Of a DNA stretch of 36,440 nucleotides, positions 17,468-29,184 are shown piece after piece. A program made the position numbers and the translations under genes. The stretch comes from Methanothrix sp. (GTDB lineage: Archaea; Halobacteriota; Methanosarcinia; Methanotrichales; Methanotrichaceae): contig JAUWQF010000009.1 in assembly GCA_030611205.1 (NCBI GenBank), positions 1-36,440 of the forward strand, in the 5' to 3' direction. The notes below the pieces were generated by a model, which saw nothing but the letters and a program-made list of their open reading frames with translations, searched no databases and had not been told where the DNA came from. Within the stretch, counting starts at the first letter, position 1, and every line of letters starts with the position of its first letter.

Positions 17468-19855
17468 ATGACAGAGATCGACGTCGACATCACCGAGGAG
17501 ATGAAGTCATCTTACATCGATTACGCCATGAGCGTCATCGTGGGAAGGGCGCTTCCCGACGTGCGAGACGGACTCAAACCAGTTCACCGGCGGATCCTCT
17601 ACGCCATGCACGAGCAAGGGATGACCTTTGACCAGTCCTACAAGAAGTCGGCCAGGATCGTAGGAGACGTTATGGGTAAGTACCATCCCCACGGCGACGC
17701 CGCTATCTACGAGACCATGGTGCGGATGGCCCAGGACTTCTCCCTGCGTTACCTGCTGGTGGACGGGCAGGGCAACTTCGGATCGATAGATGGCGACCCT
17801 GCGGCGGCCATGAGGTACACCGAGGTCCGCCTCTCGAAGATCGCGGGCGAGATGCTGGAGGATATCGAGAAGGATACCGTGGACTTCGTTCCCAACTACG
17901 ATGACTCCCTGAAGGAGCCCGTGGTCTTGCCCTCGAAGCTTCCCAACCTCCTCCTGAACGGATCCACGGGCATAGCGGTGGGCATGGCCACCAACATACC
18001 TCCTCACAACCTGGGAGAGGTGATCAGGGCCACGATCAAGCTGATAGACGATCCCGACATCACCACCGCAGATCTGATGGATTGCATGCCCGGGCCCGAC
18101 TTCCCCACGGGTGGCTACATCATCGGAAGGTCGGGGATCGGGGCCGCTTATTCTACGGGCAAAGGCATAATCAAGCTTCGGGCCAAGTCCAGGATCGAGA
18201 GCGAAGGACGACCCCGGATCATCGTTACCGAGCTGCCCTACCAGGTCAACAAGGCCAAGGTCCTGGAAGATACGGCTGAGTTGGTGAAGTCGGACAGAAT
18301 CGAAGGGATATCTGACCTGAGAGACGAGTCCGACCGGGAGGGCATACGCATGGTGATCGAGCTGAAGCCGGGGACCACCCCGGAGGTCGTTCTGAACCAG
18401 CTTTACAGGCATACCCGGCTGGAGACCACCTACGGGATAACCAACCTCGTCTTGGTAGATGGCCAGCCCAAGATCCTGCCTCTGAAGGAGATGCTCGTCC
18501 ACTATGTATCCTACCGGTCTGAGGTGATCGAGCGGAGATGCCGGTTCGATCTTGACAGAGCTGAGAAGCGGGCTCACGTTCTGGAAGGGCTGCTGCTGGC
18601 GCTCCAAAATATCGATCGAATAATCGAGATGATCAAGAAGGCGTCCTCGCCAGCCGATGCCAGGATCGCCCTCTCCGAGGGCTTTGATCTGAGCGAGGTT
18701 CAGACCAAGGCCATACTGGAGATGCGTCTGCAGCGTCTGACCGCCCTGGAGCAGGGCAAGATCGAGTCGGAGGCCAAAGACCTGGAGGTCACCATATCCC
18801 GGCTGAGAGAGATCCTGGCCAGTCCTCATGAGGTCCTGGAGATAATCAAGTCTGATCTGATGGAGCTGGACGAGAAGTACGGCGACCCCAGGAGGACACA
18901 GATCGTCGACGCCGAGGACGAGGTACAGATCGAAGATATGATACAGGATGAAGAGGTGGCGGTGACCGTCACCAGCGACGGGTACATCAAGAGGCAGCCG
19001 GTGACCGCCTACCGGCAGCAGAAGAGGGGAGGCAAAGGGGTGATCGGGGCGGATACAAAGAGCGAGGACTTCGTGACCGACCTGTTCATCGCATCTACCC
19101 TCGATTACATACTATTATTCACCGACAAGGGCAAGGCTCACTGGCTGAGGGTCTTCGACGTTCCTTCCATGGGAAGGACAGCCCGTGGCAAGGCGATAGT
19201 GAACCTGCTCCAGCTCGATGCCGACGAGAAGATTACCGAGGCCATAGCGGTCAATAACTTCGATTCCGAGGGGTACATCGTGATGGCTACCAGCGGGGGA
19301 CAGGTGATCAAGACACCCATCCGGGCCTACAGTCACCCCCGAAAAATCGGGATCAAGGCGGTGAACCTCCGGGGTGAGAGCCTGGTTGCCGCACGTCTTA
19401 CCGATGGTCACCAGGAGCTGATCCTGGCCACCAGTCGCGGAAAGGCTATCAGGTTCTCCGAAAAGGATGTCAGGTCCAGTAACCGGGGATCGATGGGGGT
19501 AAGGGGCGTATCTCTGGAGTACGACGACAGGGTGATCAGCATGGACGTGGTCAGTCCCGACTCCGCACTCCTGACAGTGACCCTAGAGGGGTACGGCAAG
19601 CGCACCGACCTGGAGGAGTACTCACCTCACCGGCGGGGGGGTAAAGGGATGAAGAACATAGACTCCAGGAAAGGTGAGGTGGTGACCTCCATGACCGTCT
19701 CCGAGGATGACGAGCTGATGATCACTACCAGAGAGGGTATTATGATAAGGATCCCCGTCAGCGATATCAGGGTCCAGGGTCGGGCCACCCAGGGCGTGAG
19801 GATCATGCGCCTAAAGCCCGGTGACGAGGTGGCGGCGGTGGCGCTGGTGAAGTAG
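17468..19855 (+). CDS. gyrA: DNA gyrase subunit A
   Basis: The 795-residue protein opens with the winged-helix breakage domain: [41 protein letters not shown], and the active Tyr117 in [14 protein letters not shown] tower and coiled coil follow. The C-terminal beta-pinwheel begins with the GyrA box QQKRGGKG (about 516-523), the feature separating gyrase from topoisomerase IV. It begins 12 bases after gyrB with GAGGT as ribosome-binding site. It cuts and rejoins DNA with GyrB to introduce negative supercoils. The gene is complete. It was most likely acquired from bacteria in the euryarchaeal ancestor; that is established for the family, not shown here. Confidence 0.97.
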
Positions 19856-20148
19856 AGCCTCGCCGTCCATACTTTTTGAGCCGTCTCTGTATTCCGATGT
19901 TGGGCCGATATGGTGCGGGGTGGTGCGGTGAGGACGAGGACGAGACGCTGACCAGGGCCCGCCGATCGCCGGAGTGGCGCTGGTCTCGGCGCTTCAGGTC
20001 TGGCTCATATTATTTCGTCTATTCTTTGCTGTTGTGGGGGCTCCAGGCAAGCCTGCGCCCGCCTGCGGCGGGATGTGCGGGTGACGCCACCCACCGTGCT
20101 ACAGACTATTGCTTTCGAGAAAAATCCTTCATTCGGTCGGATTTGCCA

Positions 20149-20190
20149 TGAAAATGACGACCCAGGCTGCTTGTGCCTGCCGATTTTCAT
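20149..20190 (+). other. two-part stem-loop in the gyrA-DUF5611 gap
   Basis: TGAAAAT (20149-20155) pairs with ATTTTCA (20183-20189), and inside it CAGGC pairs with GCCTG around a 7-base loop, followed by a T-run. Upstream, CCCGCC-TGC-GGCGGG near 20054 is another hairpin. Together they may be a terminator region for gyrA. No gene is supported in 19856-20298; a 91-codon frame there has no family features. Confidence 0.3.
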
Positions 20191-20230
20191 TTTTCGGGCA
20201 TGAGACTTGGTATCATGAACATTTACTTGA

Positions 20231-20255
20231 GTACATAAATCTATACTTTATGTAC
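20231..20255 (+). promoter_or_regulatory. 25-bp dyad, copy 2 (upstream of the DUF5611 gene), perfect arms
   Basis: The site reads GTACATAAA-TCTATAC-TTTATGTAC, a perfect 9-bp inverted repeat. ACATTTACTTGA precedes it as in copy 1. It ends 43 bases before the ATG at 20299. A TATA-like ACTATAATTG at 20268-20277 between them would give a nearly leaderless transcript. Confidence 0.65.
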
Positions 20256-20298
20256 AGCTCGAAAGAACTATAATTGAGTAACAACCAAGGGCAAGTGC

Positions 20299-20604
20299 AT
20301 GGAATATAGGCTCAAGAGAGGGTTCAAGCCCGATATTGAACGGGTCAGAGGGGTGCTGGAAGAGGTATTCCTCACAGAGGTCCACGAAGAGGGCGATATG
20401 CTGGTGACCAGCTACGGTGCGTTGAAGAGGGTCGAGGTCAAGATCGTGGAGAAGAAGCTCTCCGTGATCTCCGAAGCAAACCCCGAAGCCAGCGAAGAGA
20501 CGATGCTGGATACCAACCGGCGGTTCAGGGACTTCCTATTGAAAGCCACCGGCTACACCGGCAAGCAGAGGATCAAGCAGGCGAAGAAAGATGCGCAAGA
20601 ATAG
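20299..20604 (+). CDS. DUF5611 family protein
   Basis: The 101-residue protein resembles the short DUF5611 proteins of methanogens: MEYRLKRGFKPDIERV at the start, a central TSYGALKRVEVKI strand, and the strongly conserved LDTNRRFRDFLLKATGYTGKQR near the end, followed by a basic tail. Function is unknown. No catalytic motif or membrane segment is visible; the alpha/beta pattern and basic tail suggest a small soluble, possibly nucleic-acid-associated protein. It shares an upstream dyad element with gyrB, EngB and a surface gene, which is the only clue to regulation. Confidence 0.8.
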   Translation: MEYRLKRGFKPDIERVRGVLEEVFLTEVHEEGDMLVTSYGALKRVEVKIVEKKLSVISEANPEASEETMLDTNRRFRDFLLKATGYTGKQRIKQAKKDAQE

Positions 20605-20621
20605 CTGGTGCTGGCACCAGC
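20604..20621. terminator. palindromic bidirectional terminator between the DUF5611 and MAT genes
   Basis: GCTGGTGC-TG-GCACCAGC is a perfect palindrome filling the 20-base space between two converging stop codons (20604 and 20625). Placement suggests termination for both strands. Confidence 0.5.
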
Positions 20622-20624
20622 CTC

Positions 20625-21724
20625 TTAGTACACCCTGAGCTTCCCTGCCACGAAGTCTTCGACCAGGTCACCGGTCTCCTCCAGCCTGCGGTCGACGATG
20701 GCCTCGATCCTCGTCTCCAGGGGTTCGCAGAGGCGAGGATCTCCCTTCACCTTTACCGCCCTGAGGAGTGGCTCGCTCAAGGGTGCCCCGATCTTGCTGA
20801 CCAGGGTGACATAGGCTTCTTCTGCCCCCTCCAGCTCGGCGATCTCCTCCGCGACCTGCTGGGCGATCACGTTGTAGATCTTCCCGACATGGTTGACGGG
20901 GTTCTTCCCGGCGATGGCTTCGATGGACATGGGGCGCATGGGAGTTATCAGGCCGTTGCCCCGGTTTCCCCTCCCCGTTGCTCCGTCGCCCCCCATCTCC
21001 ACCGAGGATCCGGTCACCGTGAGGAATATGCTCTTCTCGGTATCTGCCGCGTTCACGGCGACCCTCGCCTCCACCCTCTCTTTGACCGCGTCTTGGACCC
21101 GGGCCTTGACCTCTTCGTACTCCTCCAGGGAATGCACGTACCTGGAGACGATCGCCGCGGCGACGACCACGTCGATTTCCTCGCCTATGCGCACCGCCAT
21201 CACCTTGGTATCTTCGCCCACCCCTTCGATCCCCCGGACCACATCCTCCAGCACCAGCACCAGCCGCTCCACGGGATCGAGGGGCGCGAACCCAACGCCT
21301 ATGGAGGTGTCGTTCGCCCCCTTGCCCATGAGGCCTCTCAGCTCAGGAGCGCCTTCTCTCACCCGGGGATCGATCCGGAACTCCAACAGGCTTTCCATCG
21401 CGAACTCCAGATGGGAGGAAACCGCCCTTTGGATCACCGGGTCCAGAGAACGGCCCGGAGGGGCGGTCGCCCGCCCACCTACGATCACCGTGGGCGGCTC
21501 CAGCACCTGGCCGCCGCGCCGAACCGCGGATCGGTCTTCCCAGTGGTTATGAGCACCTTATCCACGTTGTGATGCAGTATCTCTCCGAACTCGTCCAGAT
21601 AAAACCGGGATAGCTCCATGGAGACGACCTCGGAGACGGCATCGGCCAGCGTGTCGGGATGGCCCAGCCCCTTCCGCTCCACAACTTCGAAAGGGGGGCG
21701 GCTGTACTTCTGGAAGGTTATCAT
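20625..21724 (-). CDS. archaeal-type methionine adenosyltransferase, frameshifted by an apparent 2-base insertion
   Basis: The N-terminal part (21724 to about 21518) reads FEVVERKGLGHPDTLADAV, ILHHNVDKVLITTGKTDPRFG. The C-terminal part, in another frame, continues QVLEPPTVIVGGRATAP and later MGKGANDTSIGVGFAPL, GRGNRGNGLITPMRPMS, AGKNPVNHVGKIYN, all hallmarks of the archaeal MAT family that makes S-adenosylmethionine. The join is in GGCGCGGCGGCC. Removing one GC gives FGGGQV, the usual FGGG motif, and a 365-residue protein slightly short of the usual 400. Since MAT is normally essential, a sequencing or assembly error is likelier than loss; a real mutation is possible. It supplies SAM for methyltransferases. 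Confidence 0.85.
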
Positions 21725-21859: not shown

Positions 21860-23095
21860 ATGAGCGAATCGACGATTACTTCTGATCAAGAGTCAATTCA
21901 CGACCTATATTTAACGAGGATCGGCTTCCTCGAAGACGAGAACAAACATCTAATCGAAGAAATCGAGATCACTAGGATGGAGAAGGAAGATACCAGGGCG
22001 AAGCTGGTCGAGACCCTCATCTCTGGCAAGAAGACCGCGAGGGAGGTGGAGAGGCTCAAGAAGGAGAACTCCCTCCTTCGTAGGATGCCGCTTTTCCTGG
22101 CGACGGTCGTGGAGATAGGTGACGATTACGTACTTCTCAGGCAGCACGGCAACAACCAGGAGTTCATAACCGCCGCCGCTCCTGAGGTCAGGGAGAAGCT
22201 GGAGCCCAACACCCGGGTGGCCGTAAACAACTCCCTGACCATCGTGAGGATCATGGACAAGTCCATAGACGTCAGGGCGAAGGCCATGGAACTGATCGAG
22301 GCTCCTGAGATCACCTACGACGACATCGGCGGGCTCGACGAGCAGATACAGGATGTCAGGGAGACCGTGGAGCTGCCCCTCACCAGGCCGGAGCTCTTCA
22401 CCAATATCGGGGTGGAGCCGCCCAAAGGGATCCTCCTTTACGGTTTGCCGGGAACGGGCAAGACCCTTATCGCCAAGGCCGTGGCAGAGCACTCCATGGC
22501 CACCTTCATCCACATGTCCGGGAGCGAGCTGGTGCACAAGTTCATCGGCGAGGGCGCCCAGCTGGTGCGTGACATATTCGATATGGCCCGGGATAAGGCG
22601 CCTTCCGTGGTCTTCATAGACGAGATCGACGCCGTGGGCGGCATCAGGACCAGCGACGGTACCACCGGCAGCGCCGAGGTGAACAGGACGATGATGCAGC
22701 TCCTGGCCGAGCTGGACGGTTTCCGGTCGAGAGGTGATATCAAGGTCATCGCCGCCACCAACCGCATAGACATCCTGGATCCGGCCCTTCTCCGGTCGGG
22801 CAGGTTCGACCGGATACTCGAGATACCCCTGCCCAATGCAGAGGCCCGGCTCAAGATCCTCCAGATACACACCCGCGGCATGAAGATTGATTCTGACGTC
22901 GACCTCCAGGCCATAGTTGAAGAGAGCGACGGGTACAGCGGTGCCGACCTGAAGGCGATCGCCGTCGAGGCGGGCATGATGGCCATAAGGAGAGAAGGAT
23001 CCTCGGTAACCAGAAAGGACTTCGCGAAGGCCGTGGATAAGGTGCTCGGCGAAGAGTCACATCAAGCGGACGAGGCCATCAGGATGTTCTCCTGA
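21860..23095 (+). CDS. pan: proteasome-activating nucleotidase
   Basis: The 411-residue protein has a coiled coil at about 15-75, an OB-fold region (LATVVEIGDDYVLLRQHGNN) and an AAA ATPase domain. Walker A is GLPGTGKT (about 195), Walker B VVFIDEIDAVGG (about 250), sensor-1 AATNR and arginine fingers in RSGRFDR. YDDIGGLDEQIQDVRE is the typical PAN/Rpt linker. It unfolds proteins and feeds the 20S proteasome. The C-terminus ends in M-F-S where PAN usually has hydrophobic-Tyr-any; Phe replaces Tyr, a conservative form of the gate-opening motif. The start is supported by the TATA spacing. Confidence 0.95.
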   Translation: MSESTITSDQESIHDLYLTRIGFLEDENKHLIEEIEITRMEKEDTRAKLVETLISGKKTAREVERLKKENSLLRRMPLFLATVVEIGDDYVLLRQHGNNQEFITAAAPEVREKLEPNTRVAVNNSLTIVRIMDKSIDVRAKAMELIEAPEITYDDIGGLDEQIQDVRETVELPLTRPELFTNIGVEPPKGILLYGLPGTGKTLIAKAVAEHSMATFIHMSGSELVHKFIGEGAQLVRDIFDMARDKAPSVVFIDEIDAVGGIRTSDGTTGSAEVNRTMMQLLAELDGFRSRGDIKVIAATNRIDILDPALLRSGRFDRILEIPLPNAEARLKILQIHTRGMKIDSDVDLQAIVEESDGYSGADLKAIAVEAGMMAIRREGSSVTRKDFAKAVDKVLGEESHQADEAIRMFS

Positions 23096-23192: not shown

Positions 23193-24491
23193 ATGATGGA
23201 AGGGGATGTCGTCGTCTACAATAACACCTCATCTCCAGAGGTACCTGCGGAAGCGTCATCGAGTAGCTTCTCGGAGAGTTCTTTACATTCGATGGGTGAA
23301 GGAATATGCTCAAAGATATCCACAGTGATCTTTTCGATGACCGAGCAACTAAGATCTATCCTGGACGTGGCTCTCCCGAAAGCCGATCTGCCATCCATCG
23401 CCATCACCCTCGCCATCGTAGCGGCGATCATCGTCGCTACATATGTTGTCGCCAAGGCGGTAGACAGGATGCTTGCCTTCCTCTTGCCCAGGGTGATCCT
23501 GGCAGAGGCGATCGGCGTCGATCCGGAAACGGAGAAAACCTTCCACACCGTCATCCGGAAGCTGTCGGCGGCGGTGATCTACGTCATCGGCATCTTTCTG
23601 GTGATCATTCAGGTAGATGTTGGTCTGTTGCCCGTCGCGGTCAGCCTTGTCACCATAGCGATGATCATTATCGTCACATATGTTGTCGCCAAGGCGGCGG
23701 ACCGGATGCTCTTAGCCTACGAGCCCTCGGAGATCAGCACGGAGGTGACCGGCATCGATATCGCGACGGCAGATACCCTCCGTACCGTCCTCCGGAGGCT
23801 TCTGGTGGCGACGATCTACATCATCGGCCTGCTTCTTGTGGTATTCCAGATAGAACCGCTTAGCAAGGCCGCGACCACCCTGCTGACAGGTGCCGGTGTC
23901 ATCGGTCTGGTCATAGGTTTCGCGGCCAGGAGCTCCCTCTCCAACGTCGTATCGGGCATATTCCTGGCGCTCTTCCACCCCATCCGGGTCGGTGATTACG
24001 TCGACTTCAAAGGCGATTATGGCCAGATAGAGGATATCACCCTGAGGCATACGGTGATTCATACCTGGGACGGTCGCCGGATCATGATCCCCAACAGCGT
24101 CATGGATACCGAGTCCATAATCAACTGGACCATCAGAAAACCGGAGATCACCTGGACGATAAACATAGGCATCGCCTACACCGCAGATATTGACAAGGCC
24201 CGCCAGATAATCCTGGAGACGGCGAAGAGACATCCTCTGGTCCTGAAGAACCGCGACATAACCGTGAGGGTGACCGAGCTCGGGGACTTCGCCGTGAACC
24301 TGCGGCTCTACGCGGACGTGCCCCACAGGGACGTGGCCTACACCACCGGCTGCGAGATCATGGAGGCTGTCAAGAAGAACTTCGACAAAGAAGGTATCGA
24401 GATTCCCTATCCCTACCGGAACCTCATCATCCACAGGCCGGATCAGGAAGACCCCCAGGGTCTGCATATCCGGGAAGATCAGGCCTCTTGA
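23193..24491 (+). CDS. MscS-family mechanosensitive channel with a duplicated membrane unit
   Basis: The 432-residue protein ends in a standard MscS pore and beta domain: LLTGAGVIGLVIGFAARSSL (TM3, about 237-256), VVSGIFLALFHPIRVGDYV and the NWTIRKPEITWTINIGIAY core. Before it lie two copies of one roughly 79-residue unit: TYVVAKAVDRMLAF near residue 83 and TYVVAKAADRMLLA near 162, each followed by a helix and a YVIGIFLVI or YIIGLLLVV segment. At DNA level 22 bases (23439-23460 and 23676-23697) are identical, so the duplication is recent. The channel would release solutes on hypo-osmotic shock. The start at 23193 lacks a clear ribosome-binding site and may be leaderless; ATG 23292 is an alternative. 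From 23096 to 23192 only an AT-rich promoter-like stretch is seen. Confidence 0.9.
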   Translation: MMEGDVVVYNNTSSPEVPAEASSSSFSESSLHSMGEGICSKISTVIFSMTEQLRSILDVALPKADLPSIAITLAIVAAIIVATYVVAKAVDRMLAFLLPRVILAEAIGVDPETEKTFHTVIRKLSAAVIYVIGIFLVIIQVDVGLLPVAVSLVTIAMIIIVTYVVAKAADRMLLAYEPSEISTEVTGIDIATADTLRTVLRRLLVATIYIIGLLLVVFQIEPLSKAATTLLTGAGVIGLVIGFAARSSLSNVVSGIFLALFHPIRVGDYVDFKGDYGQIEDITLRHTVIHTWDGRRIMIPNSVMDTESIINWTIRKPEITWTINIGIAYTADIDKARQIILETAKRHPLVLKNRDITVRVTELGDFAVNLRLYADVPHRDVAYTTGCEIMEAVKKNFDKEGIEIPYPYRNLIIHRPDQEDPQGLHIREDQAS

Positions 24492-24497: not shown

Positions 24498-25052
24498 CTA
24501 CAGCCGGGACCGGATGATCTTTCTAAGGGGCTCGATCTCACCTTTCTTGGCGCATACGGGTGCTATCCGGTCGATCCACTGACGCCAGGGTGGCAGCATC
24601 CCCAGCCGTTCGGCGATCTCGTCCAGGGTCTCGTCCGGACGGGAGACCTTGTCCATCTTGTTCGCCGCCAGCACCACGTCTAGATCCAGGTCATGGAGAA
24701 ACTCGAAGAGTTCCACCTCGATGGGCGTCTGGCCGCGTCTCTCCCAGCGTCTCACTATATCCAGAAAGGCGGAGGCATCTGTGACCATTATCACCAGGTG
24801 GAGGTCGTCGGCCTCGTCTTCGAAGTAGCGGACGATATTGTCCTTGGTCTTCTCCCGGACCTTCTTCGGGATCCCGCTCATGAAGCCGTAGCCGGGCATG
24901 TCCACGTAGACCACGTTCCCGACCTTGACCTTGAAGGGCGCGAGGGTGACCCCCGGCCTCCGCCCGGTCCTGACCTTCCTGCCCGTGAGCCGACCGAATA
25001 GGGTGGACTTGCCCACGTTAGATCTTCCTATCACAACTAGCTCTTTCGTCAT
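24498..25052 (-). CDS. engB: EngB-like ribosome-assembly GTPase
   Basis: The 184-residue TRAFAC GTPase has G1 GRSNVGKS at 9-16, a G2 Thr in RRPGVTLAP, G3 DMPGYGF at 51-57, the G4 motif NKMD at 131-134 and a G5-like CAKKG. The pattern G-x-S-N-V-G-K-S with D-x-P-G-Y-G defines the EngB/YihA family, which in bacteria helps assemble the large ribosomal subunit; archaeal members are common and less studied. The product is soluble. The promoter region contains dyad copy 3, only 20 bases before the ATG. The gene converges with the MscS gene over a shared palindrome. Confidence 0.92.
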   Translation of the reverse strand: MTKELVVIGRSNVGKSTLFGRLTGRKVRTGRRPGVTLAPFKVKVGNVVYVDMPGYGFMSGIPKKVREKTKDNIVRYFEDEADDLHLVIMVTDASAFLDIVRRWERRGQTPIEVELFEFLHDLDLDVVLAANKMDKVSRPDETLDEIAERLGMLPPWRQWIDRIAPVCAKKGEIEPLRKIIRSRL

Positions 25053-25103: not shown

Positions 25104-25127
25104 GCTACCCCATCTGCTACCCCATCT
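25104..25127 (-). repeat. 12-bp tandem duplication spanning the stop codon
   Basis: Two exact copies of GCTACCCCATCT (25104-25115 and 25116-25127). On the - strand this duplicates the last three codons and stop of the surface protein gene: Gln-Met-Gly-stop occurs twice. It is functionally silent because the first stop ends translation. Confidence 0.75.
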
Positions 25128-28100
25128 GCTTGTAGTACTCCTCGATCTCCTTGTTGCAGTCCATCTCGTAGACTGTCAGGTTCCATTCGGGCGTATCCCA
25201 GCTCCCGTAAAGGGTGGAGATGTCGAGAGGCTCTTTATCGGGCTGGGCCTCCACAATCTCGCGGCGATCCGGTGGCTCTTCCAACCTGCCGAGTTTGCTG
25301 TAGACGCGGTCGTTCTTCGCGATCTCGACCATCTCCAGCGTCGTTACGAAGGCGGCGTTCTTCGATGTGGCATAGTCTATGAAGTCCACGTACGCATCTC
25401 GATATCCCTCATCCGACCCGAATATGAAGTTGTGGAAGACGACCACCATGGGGTCGTCGTTCTTCGCGCACTCCTCGAACTCGTCGACGAGGAGGTCGTA
25501 CCACTGGGAACCGTCCAGCCCGAGCTCCTCTTTGGCAAGACGGTCGGAGAGGTAGACCTCTTCTCCCGATAAGGTGTGGGTGCTCACCGGTACCGCGTAG
25601 AATGAATACCCTTCTGCCTGGTAGGGCCACGTATCGTCCTCGTGACCCGGGAGGTATACGAGACCTGCCTGGAACCCTGCGTCGTATACGATGTCCATCT
25701 TGTCCAGGATCTTGTACGTGGTCTCGCTCTGGTTGAACCTTTGGGGTCTGAAGCCCTTTGCCTCGATCTTCAGGCCCTCACAGACGTAGGCCGACTCGAC
25801 GAGCCGTTTCGCCTCTCTGAGACACGGATACTGCTTTCCGTAGGGCATGGGACCCAGGAGCTCGTCGGTGGTCATGCCGTGCATGGCCAGCTCATGACGG
25901 GGATCGGACCCGACCTGGGTGACGAAGAGCTTGTACAGGGCGCCTCCGGTACGCTGGGATATGAAGTCACCGGTCGTATAGATGGTGACGTTGAGCTTTT
26001 TGGGGCCGATCACGTTGATCATATCCAGAAGAGAGTTTGCCTCGAGGTCCACCATCTCCTCGGGGGTCGCCTCTGGCGCGTACGGATATAGGTCGGCATC
26101 GATCATCAGGTTGACCAGTACCAGATCCTCTGGCTTATCCTCAGGTGCCGGCAGGGGCAAGACGGCCCCGGCCACCGCCTCATCTACCTCTCCAGCTTCC
26201 TCTTCCTCTTCCTCTTCTTCTTCTTCTTCTTCTTCTTCTCTCGCAGGAATGGGCCCGGCAGAGAACGAGAGCCAGTCGGTGACGACCTCGGACGTGGCTT
26301 CTGCCGTGACGGTCCCTCTCCCGTACTCGGCGGTTACGTTCACGAGGTTGACCAGCGTCCCCGTCCCCGTCCCCTCCAGAACGGTCTGCAGCTCCACCGT
26401 CTGTAAACCGCCGATGGGCAGCGACGGGAAGGTCCAGACGAGCCGCGGTCCCTCAATCTCCGGCCGGAGGCTCGAGTTGATGAAGGTCAAACCCTCTGGC
26501 AGGGTGTCGGTGAGGTAGACCGACCTCAGGGCTTTGTTCCCGTCGTTGGTCACGTTTATGGTGAAGAGCACCCTATCTTCGTCCAGCATCGCGGCCGTCT
26601 TGGTCACGTTGACATGGGGGGTTAGGTACGTCGGTATACCGTAGATACCGATCGATGTGGTGATATTATAGCGGCCGCGTAAGGTCTGGTCCACCCGGAT
26701 CTTCTCATTCTCGGTGCTGCCCGTCTTCTCCACGGCCGTTATCTCGGCCCCGCCCTGGAACTCGCCGACGATGGTCATGGTGGCCGAGTCCATCACAGTC
26801 TCTTTTTCTATGTAGTCGGCCGAGTCGATGCGCTCGCATATTACCGATTCCTTGCCTTTGGTGGTCATCCCCTCGTACCATTTCGAGCTGTAGTTCGTCT
26901 CCATCCCGCCCGCTCTCTGAGCTGTGGGGATGTAGTCCATCAGGGAGTCCTTGTAGACGGTGCCCGTCTGGATCAGCTCCTCGGATTCGTAGTAACCGCT
27001 CCCATGTTCGAAGGATCTCTGGCCATCCCCGATCCTCTTATCCACGGCCACGAAGCCCGTTCCCTTCGCGTACTTCGATAATGCGACGCCGCTCCCGTAG
27101 GAGTCCAGGGACTCTTCCGTCCGGAAGCTGCCGTGGTAGTCCTCGTGGAGTTCCATCAGGGTTTCGCCGCTCTTCGGGTCCCGTTTGAGGTAACCGATCC
27201 GGACCTGCCCGCCGCCGAACTCGGCACAAGAGGCGTAGGTGGTCTGGCTCTCATCGACCAGAAAGGAGCTCTCCTTATCGATGTTGTCCATGTAGAGGTA
27301 GCTCTCCGATAACGACTCGCCACGGGCGTGGTTCTTGGCGCAGGTGCGGTCGGACCACAACGAGTCGTAGTCGATCTCTCTTTTTCCGGGCAGCGAGAAC
27401 GTGGTCTCTCTATGCTGGGCGAAGGTATCTTTATCCAGCCGTACGCTCCGGTTGGCGGTGCTGACCCCGAGGAGCCGGTCCCCTTCGTAGTACCCGCTCC
27501 CATGTTCCACGGTCCTGATCGTCGTGCCCGGCGTCTTGACCGTGATCGTCGCCGAGGCGTTCTTTGTAATATTCGTCGTATTGACGCAACCCGTTATATT
27601 GACGTAGTTCGTCAGCCCGTAAGGCTCTCTGGAGGTCGTTAGCCGGTTGTTGAGAAAGATGAAACCCTCACCGGTGACCGACGAGGTCTCCTCAAACATG
27701 ATGTCTTGTTTCTTTGGGATCTTGACCACCAGCTTGATGGACCCAGATGCACCGATACTGAGATTTCCGATGTTCCAGACCAGAACCTTACCGTCGATAC
27801 GGTTCGGCGGCGGGGTCGCGCTCACGTATTCCACGTCGGGCAGGATGTCCACGATCGTCACGTCTGTGAGATCCTGGGCAGACTCATTGCCGTTGCCATA
27901 ATGTATGATGTAACGGACCTTGTTTCCTGCCGAGTAGACGGACTTATCGGCAGCCTTGTTAATCCAGAGGTCGGTATGCAGGGGAACGCCGACGGTGGTG
28001 TTTATGGTGACTTCGTCTCTCGCCCCCTCGTCGCAGGTGATGGTGGCCGTGTTTTTTATGATCGTCCCGTTCGTCGTGTTGGGAAGTACCTCGACGGCGA

Positions 28101-29184
28101 TGATGATCGTCCCGGTATCGTAGATCGATAGGTTCCCGATGGTCCACCGGTTGTTGGTGCCGTTATCGGGGTCCTGATCCGAGCGATTGAAGATCACGTT
28201 CTTGTCATAGGTCTCGTTGATTACCACCTCATGGGCTTCGCCGTCACCAATGTTCCTGTAGGTGATCGTATAGTTCAGGATCTTTCCCGCAGCCACAGGA
28301 TCCGGCGACCCCGTCTTTGTGATCTCCAGATCGGGACCGACCACGCCGGTGCCGATCACCACGCTGGCGTTTATGTCCTCCTCGCAGGTCATGTTGACCG
28401 TGTTCTTCAGCGTCGATCCTCTCGGGGCGTCGGGACTGACCTCGACGGTGACGTAGATCGTACCGGAACCGCCCGGCATCAGTTCGTCGATGGACCACCG
28501 GTCGTCGGTTCCCATATCTGGCATCGGATTTGAATGCTTGAAGGTCACGTTATCGTCGTAGGTTTCCACGATGACGACACCGTGAGCTACACCCCGCCCC
28601 CGGTTTTCGTAGCTTATGGTGTACGAAATGAGGCCGCCTGCCTTGGCAGGATCCGGGTAGGCGCTCTTCGATACATTGAACTCGGGCTCGGGCATGGCGA
28701 CCTCTAAGGAGTATATATCCCAGTCCGTAACCGTATTATCGTTCGGATCTGCGGCCGTCACCGTGGCGATGTTGCTGAGCCAGAAGATCTCGGGGCGAGG
28801 GAGATAGCCGGGGGTCTTCCGGTACTCCATGCTGACCACCACCCCGCTGACATCGATCACGCTGATCAGGGTATCGCCGGTCCTGTAATCTATGACGGTG
28901 TAATAGGTGCGTTGACCCACAGTTGGCTTTTCGTACTCTATCCTGAGATATTCCATCGTCCGCTTGCAGAGGTAGGTATCGAATACCACCTCGCCCCTTG
29001 GGTCGTACTCGGTGGTCAAGACGGCATCGGTGATGGGATCGTAATATTCGGACCGTATCATGACCCCGTACTCGTCCATCATAAGGTCCAGGGTCTCGTC
29101 GGTGACGATGTCTGTATAATTGTAAAATGTATAGCTCTTCTCGTCGATGATCTCATGAGTCACCACCAGCCGGGCCTTGCTCAC
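25117..29184 (-). CDS. large DUF11-repeat surface protein with C-terminal polysaccharide-deacetylase-like module (3' part of a split gene)
   Basis: The 1,355-residue frame starts GTG at 29184 without a signal peptide; it is best read as the continuation of the gene ending at 29153. DUF11 Ig-like repeats lie at about 165-275, 280-395, 403-545 and 856-975. Two copies of a roughly 140-residue unit beginning EHGSGYYE lie at about 558 and 724. A run of about 15 Glu (981-996) precedes a NodB-like module (about 1020-1295): YTTGDFISQ, ELAMHGMTTDELLG, GFRPQRFNQSETTYKIL, VVVFHNFIFG. A metal-site His of NodB appears replaced by Thr/Asp in MTTDE, so catalysis is uncertain. The product is probably a cell-surface protein. 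The module is repeated at 33047-33964. Confidence 0.85.
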   Translation of the reverse strand: MSKARLVVTHEIIDEKSYTFYNYTDIVTDETLDLMMDEYGVMIRSEYYDPITDAVLTTEYDPRGEVVFDTYLCKRTMEYLRIEYEKPTVGQRTYYTVIDYRTGDTLISVIDVSGVVVSMEYRKTPGYLPRPEIFWLSNIATVTAADPNDNTVTDWDIYSLEVAMPEPEFNVSKSAYPDPAKAGGLISYTISYENRGRGVAHGVVIVETYDDNVTFKHSNPMPDMGTDDRWSIDELMPGGSGTIYVTVEVSPDAPRGSTLKNTVNMTCEEDINASVVIGTGVVGPDLEITKTGSPDPVAAGKILNYTITYRNIGDGEAHEVVINETYDKNVIFNRSDQDPDNGTNNRWTIGNLSIYDTGTIIIAVEVLPNTTNGTIIKNTATITCDEGARDEVTINTTVGVPLHTDLWINKAADKSVYSAGNKVRYIIHYGNGNESAQDLTDVTIVDILPDVEYVSATPPPNRIDGKVLVWNIGNLSIGASGSIKLVVKIPKKQDIMFEETSSVTGEGFIFLNNRLTTSREPYGLTNYVNITGCVNTTNITKNASATITVKTPGTTIRTVEHGSGYYEGDRLLGVSTANRSVRLDKDTFAQHRETTFSLPGKREIDYDSLWSDRTCAKNHARGESLSESYLYMDNIDKESSFLVDESQTTYASCAEFGGGQVRIGYLKRDPKSGETLMELHEDYHGSFRTEESLDSYGSGVALSKYAKGTGFVAVDKRIGDGQRSFEHGSGYYESEELIQTGTVYKDSLMDYIPTAQRAGGMETNYSSKWYEGMTTKGKESVICERIDSADYIEKETVMDSATMTIVGEFQGGAEITAVEKTGSTENEKIRVDQTLRGRYNITTSIGIYGIPTYLTPHVNVTKTAAMLDEDRVLFTINVTNDGNKALRSVYLTDTLPEGLTFINSSLRPEIEGPRLVWTFPSLPIGGLQTVELQTVLEGTGTGTLVNLVNVTAEYGRGTVTAEATSEVVTDWLSFSAGPIPAREEEEEEEEEEEEEEAGEVDEAVAGAVLPLPAPEDKPEDLVLVNLMIDADLYPYAPEATPEEMVDLEANSLLDMINVIGPKKLNVTIYTTGDFISQRTGGALYKLFVTQVGSDPRHELAMHGMTTDELLGPMPYGKQYPCLREAKRLVESAYVCEGLKIEAKGFRPQRFNQSETTYKILDKMDIVYDAGFQAGLVYLPGHEDDTWPYQAEGYSFYAVPVSTHTLSGEEVYLSDRLAKEELGLDGSQWYDLLVDEFEECAKNDDPMVVVFHNFIFGSDEGYRDAYVDFIDYATSKNAAFVTTLEMVEIAKNDRVYSKLGRLEEPPDRREIVEAQPDKEPLDISTLYGSWDTPEWNLTVYEMDCNKEIEEYYKQMG
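26195..26240 (-). repeat. CTT-rich microsatellite encoding a poly-glutamate linker
   Basis: On the + strand CTTCCTCTTCCT-type triplets pass into uninterrupted CTT; on the - strand this encodes about 15 consecutive Glu between the last DUF11 repeat and the deacetylase-like module. It is a multiple of three, so slippage by one unit changes only linker length. Confidence 0.75.

Follow-up and report, generated by a model that had tools for sequence, protein, structure and literature searches.

Doubling of the membrane paddle in an MscS-family channel gene of Methanothrix

A gene for an MscS-family channel in Methanothrix sp. raises the question of how a three-helix mechanosensitive channel may become a five-helix one, when this took place, and what it may do to tension sensing. 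The gene lies in a stretch of 36,440 nucleotides (positions 1 to 36,440 of contig JAUWQF010000009.1, assembly GCA_030611205.1), hereafter the window. An initial annotation had described it as an MscS channel with a recent internal duplication of about 79 residues, marked by 22 identical bases offset by 237 bp, such that the pore helix follows a doubled membrane paddle, and had proposed that tension sensing could be changed as a result.

The channel gene and its internal repeat

The product matches the Pfam profiles for the second domain (MS_channel_2nd, PF00924; 1.7e-19, 70.1 bits against a cut-off of 20.2) and the third domain (MS_channel_3rd, PF21082; 2.2e-14, 54.1 bits against a cut-off of 21) of MscS channels. 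It thus has the beta and C-terminal domains of the superfamily, together with a Gly/Ala-rich TM3 pore helix at residues 223-251 leading into the beta domain, and its family assignment holds. The NCBIfam model of MscS itself (PRK10334.1) also matches the 432-residue protein, at 5.9e-36, which is under that model's own cut-off. Hydropathy peaks begin at residues 69, 124, 143, 203 and 226, in the order hairpin, hairpin, pore helix. On the basis of hydropathy and the internal repeat, the protein has the layout of YnaI, with five TM helices and two hairpins before TM3, and not that of three-helix MscS proper, in which a single TM1-TM2 paddle precedes the pore helix. The coordinates are collected in Table 1.

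Table 1. Positions in the window of the channel gene, its parts and the adjoining genes
Feature	Position	Strand	Basis
MscS-family channel gene, 432 aa, five predicted TM helices	23193..24491	+	Pfam, NCBIfam profiles
Paddle unit 1, residues 65-143, extra TM1a-TM2a hairpin	23385..23621	+	
Paddle unit 2, residues 144-222, hairpin at E. coli MscS TM1-TM2 position	23622..23858	+	
22-bp identical tract, first copy	23439..23460	+	
22-bp identical tract, second copy	23676..23697	+	
Pore helix TM3, residues 223-251	23859..23945	+	hydrophobic peak 226-244 and alignment to MscS
MscS beta domain, residues 248-313	23934..24131	+	PF00924
MscS C-terminal domain (vestibule), residues 322-404	24156..24404	+	PF21082
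EngB GTPase	24498..25052	-	NCBIfam PRK04213.1, 8.5e-78
Proteasome-activating nucleotidase (PAN), upstream neighbour	21860..23095	+	NCBIfam PRK03992.1, 1.5e-164

The doubled hairpin is real. The two 22-base tracts are exact copies 237 bp, or 79 codons, apart, and they belong to two tandem TM1-TM2 hairpins of 79 residues each, with TM3 coming after the second, as had been claimed. The span first reported, 23439-23697, does contain the repeat, but its full extent is larger and takes in two units of 237 nt. A repeat search returned a 79-nt pair (23395-23473 and 23632-23710, 78%), and at an offset of 237 the sequence matches itself at 262 of 560 bases, against 109-185 at 21 other offsets (228-249). 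Local alignment of hairpin with hairpin at the protein level scores 177, against 79 for the best of 300 block-shuffled controls, in which hydrophobic blocks were kept in place and the maximum over cut points was taken. The units share 36 of their 79 residues and are 67% identical in DNA. Their synonymous difference (pS) is 0.323, compared with 0.67 +/- 0.06 when codons are redrawn from the gene, and none of 200 draws was as low.

In a phmmer search, residues 143-415 align to residues 22-279 of E. coli MscS (8e-34); the second hairpin therefore corresponds in position to MscS TM1-TM2, which makes the first the additional hairpin. Lys and Arg residues number six and five in the two TM1-TM2 loops, and zero and one in the short connectors, counts consistent with the loops being inside, with both hairpins alike in orientation and with the pore keeping its own. 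AlphaFold models of the full-length protein and of residues 58-262 (four sequences each) gave mean pLDDT values of 45 and 46, too low for conclusions on the fold; two scans of viral contigs for relatives to add to the folding alignment found none.

Distribution and age of the doubling

Methanosaeta sp. UBA204 (G001), the sole genome of the same genus encountered, encodes a protein 91% identical to that of the window with both hairpins in place. A class-wide search with the double unit found matches in 68 of 237 genomes, and both units in one gene only in the window genome (G000), UBA204 and G006, a single draft genome (85% complete) from another genus of the same family. A phylum scan with the same query (392 genomes, 42 matching) found no doubling other than that of the window; the matching genomes listed do not include G001 or G006, and doublings unrelated in sequence would be missed by such a scan. 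The trees were built from 44 genes. A single hairpin is present in 41 of them: 39 have three hydrophobic peaks, and the remaining two have an additional peak downstream of TM3. Outside the set of 44 stand the distant paralogues L002 and L035-L043, two genes with doubtful starts (L020, L064), L062, and L033 and L034, which stand for G034 and G027 after duplicate removal.

The gene for EngB adjoins the double-paddle genes of the window, UBA204 and G006. It also adjoins the single-hairpin genes L006, L007, L010, L013, L014, L015, L019, L021, L022, L023, L025, L033, L058 and L059. Thus, the locus is orthologous and is also occupied by single-hairpin genes.

The surroundings differ on the PAN side. 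Upstream of PAN, the window (17468-21506) has a split methionine adenosyltransferase gene and a gene which we take to be gyrase-A-like, while UBA204 (L032 1134-2384) has instead what is presumably an enolase-like gene; the region appears to be rearranged between the two species. The split gene, at 20625-21718 (-), is a second, paralogous methionine adenosyltransferase in two frames (profile positions 9-76 and 75-395), and is probably a decaying paralogue. The main copy is intact on contig C107 of the window genome and is the only one found in UBA204, and G006 and G009 have both copies in open frames. Beyond EngB, at 25117-29184 (-), lies a gene for a protein of 1355 residues with DUF11 repeats; its long glutamate run is much reduced in the homologue from UBA204.

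Synonymous divergence places the doubling in time. Between the two copies dS is 0.42 in the window and 0.46 in UBA204, values that lie between the whole-gene dS separating the window from UBA204 (0.117) and that separating the window units from the single units of L006, L010, L048 and L049 (0.62-1.09). The doubling is therefore dated between those splits: most likely, to judge from these distances, it followed the departure of the genus from its nearest single-paddle relatives and preceded the split of its two sampled species. In UBA204 the longest run common to both copies is 13, so that the 22-bp run is broken there and is specific to the window; this run is a remnant of an older duplication and does not point to a very recent event. 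Gene conversion between the copies could have lowered the apparent age of the duplication. The interpretation offered in the initial annotation is thus largely right and partly supported, with the word ‘recent’ in need of qualifying: the doubling is most likely younger than the split from single-paddle relatives, and older than that from UBA204.

Probable origin of the extra hairpin, and constraint on the two copies

The best account, which we consider likely, is that a tandem duplication on the stem of the genus gave rise to a double-paddle, tension-gated MscS channel with a larger paddle. An in-frame duplication of about 237 bp in a standard three-helix archaeal MscS gene would have doubled TM1-TM2, the hairpin that faces the lipid and serves as tension paddle, yielding a five-helix channel. 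The pore-adjacent copy would retain the role of MscS TM1-TM2, and the extra hairpin would lie outside it, enlarging the paddle in the manner of TM-2/TM-1 in YnaI. As the gain was of two helices, the pore would keep its orientation. The protein would be expected to pack in the membrane as a heptamer that opens in response to membrane tension and lets solutes out, at a changed threshold set by the larger paddle.

An assembly or binning artefact might be suspected, as the window sits in a 181-contig draft genome, and reads or relatives showing only one unit had been named as the sign by which it would be recognized. The more distant relatives are indeed single, but UBA204, a different MAG within the genus whose gene is 94% identical in DNA, has the two copies, their differences following another pattern, which refutes an artefact in the window genus; moreover, copies only 67% identical are too unlike for misassembly. 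We regard this explanation as highly improbable. A more substantial alternative is that the hairpin was duplicated once, in an ancestor of the family, and was kept in the window genus and G006 and lost elsewhere. In the unit tree, grouping the three first units is marginal and not firmly rejected (p-AU 0.059), and the G006 pair does not come out as a clade, although a tree holding them together is not rejected either (p-AU 0.19). Against a single origin, the four units of the window and UBA204 group together as a clade (95/85), with the single units of genus g9 as their neighbours, and clades of the three second units (p-AU 0.014) and of all six units (0.0145) are rejected. The tree of the pore and C-terminal region likewise rejects a clade of the three double-paddle genes (p-AU 0.0075), requiring two changes, and the units are unequal in length, that of G006 having 85 residues, not 79, and taking in the segment preceding TM1. 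The trees place the G006 doubling apart, a single ancient event is unlikely, and the best reading of these phylogenies, though not a certain one, is that the window genus and G006 represent two independent doublings.

It could also be that the duplication was neutral, with unit 1 a passive, tolerated extra hairpin that leaves gating unaffected. Between the copies dN reaches the level of dS (omega about 1.0), which would suit such a history; it also indicates fast early divergence, such that the copies may not be equivalent. Between the window and UBA204, however, omega is 0.24 for unit 1, as well as 0.36 for unit 2, 0.28 for the beta and C-terminal domains and 0.64 for the N-terminal stretch, estimates with few changes behind them (6.5-10.5 synonymous changes per unit). 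The value of 2.2 for the TM3 segment comes from one synonymous change and is meaningless as a ratio. Both units look to be under constraint by this measure. Frame and helices are also intact in both genomes, and the doubling apparently arose and persisted twice; a passive hairpin is accordingly a rather improbable account.

Tension sensing and comparison with known channels

The extended-paddle layout is already known from YnaI of E. coli, which like the window protein has five TM helices and a two-hairpin paddle followed by an MscS-type pore and vestibule. According to Hu et al. (PMC8137935), TM-2/-1 of YnaI ‘seems a duplicate’ of TM1-2. In YnaI the duplicate nature of the hairpins is recognised from structure, whereas the window repeat is still plain in both protein and DNA. 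In sequence the window gene is closer to MscS (8e-34) than to wild-type YnaI chains (about 1e-16), its nearest relatives are single-paddle genes, and it does not belong to a YnaI-like clade in the sense of being closer to YnaI. The double paddle was therefore gained separately from that of YnaI, within an MscS-like lineage. E. coli MscS has one hairpin, and the window protein has two, as well as an N-terminal stretch of about 60 residues that is rich in Ser/Thr. MscK of E. coli likewise has further TM helices around a core like that of MscS, but differs in having eleven helices and a periplasmic domain (PMC9653487).

Older five-helix homologues tell a similar story with less clarity. From the phylum, 46 long-frame MscS homologues were fetched, in 14 of which the N-terminal part was too short for the repeat test. 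As the repeat z-scores of the fetched homologues were inflated, a maximum over cuts being set against a single-cut control, nine were rechecked with a corrected control. These score 63-82 (e.g. L118, L117, L080); the three young doublings reach 157-206. Seven of the nine (68-82) lie above all 300 shuffles, and the other two are equalled by one and two of 300. Weak but significant hairpin repeats are seen in the older five-helix homologues L117, L118, L080, L099, L082, L103 and L109, and alignments of L118 and L080 show a KT...DD-like motif common to both loops. These comparisons suggest that hairpin duplication is an old, repeated route to five-helix MscS channels. A five-helix paralogue in the window's own genome (L002) was considered as another older case and set aside, its repeat not being significant (105 of 300 shuffles as high). 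A literature search, with subscription journals mostly outside its reach, found the ‘duplicate’ remark on YnaI, but no sequence-level paddle duplication in an archaeal MscS.

The opening pressure of YnaI is higher than that of MscS, by a factor of about 1.5, according to Hu et al. (PMC8137935), and a YnaI-MscS chimera has the threshold of YnaI, that is, of the paddle donor, according to Flegler et al. (PMC12375004). Altered tension sensing in the window channel is thus plausible by the YnaI parallel. MscK has an estimated opening tension much lower than that of MscL (PMC9653487). Known larger channels thus go both ways, and helix number alone cannot predict the direction of a change in threshold. 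The channel most likely serves as a solute valve gated by tension, with a larger paddle and with a threshold shifted in one direction or the other.

A bolder proposal holds that paddle duplication is a recurrent threshold switch, thrown at least twice at the same locus in one family, and that the channel of the window genus has taken over as the high-tension valve of last resort in the apparent absence of MscL. MscL (PF01741) was found in neither G000 nor G001, and is above the cut-off in 35 of 50 family genomes. However, the double-paddle G006 has MscL, and the single-paddle G010, G012, G017, G020 and G029 are without it; in G008, also without MscL, no close homologue of the window channel was found. 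Replacement of MscL by the double paddle was rejected, there being no clean association across the family genomes, and the proposal as a whole is doubtful.

The origin of many-helix MscS channels from three-helix ones, and the effect of an extra paddle on tension sensing, have so far been studied by means of engineered chimeras. The window gene provides a young natural case, for which orthologues with one paddle, at the corresponding locus of sister genera, form a before-and-after series, and the apparent second, independent doubling in the same family adds to it. Its interest lies chiefly in being a datable, and apparently repeated, natural experiment.
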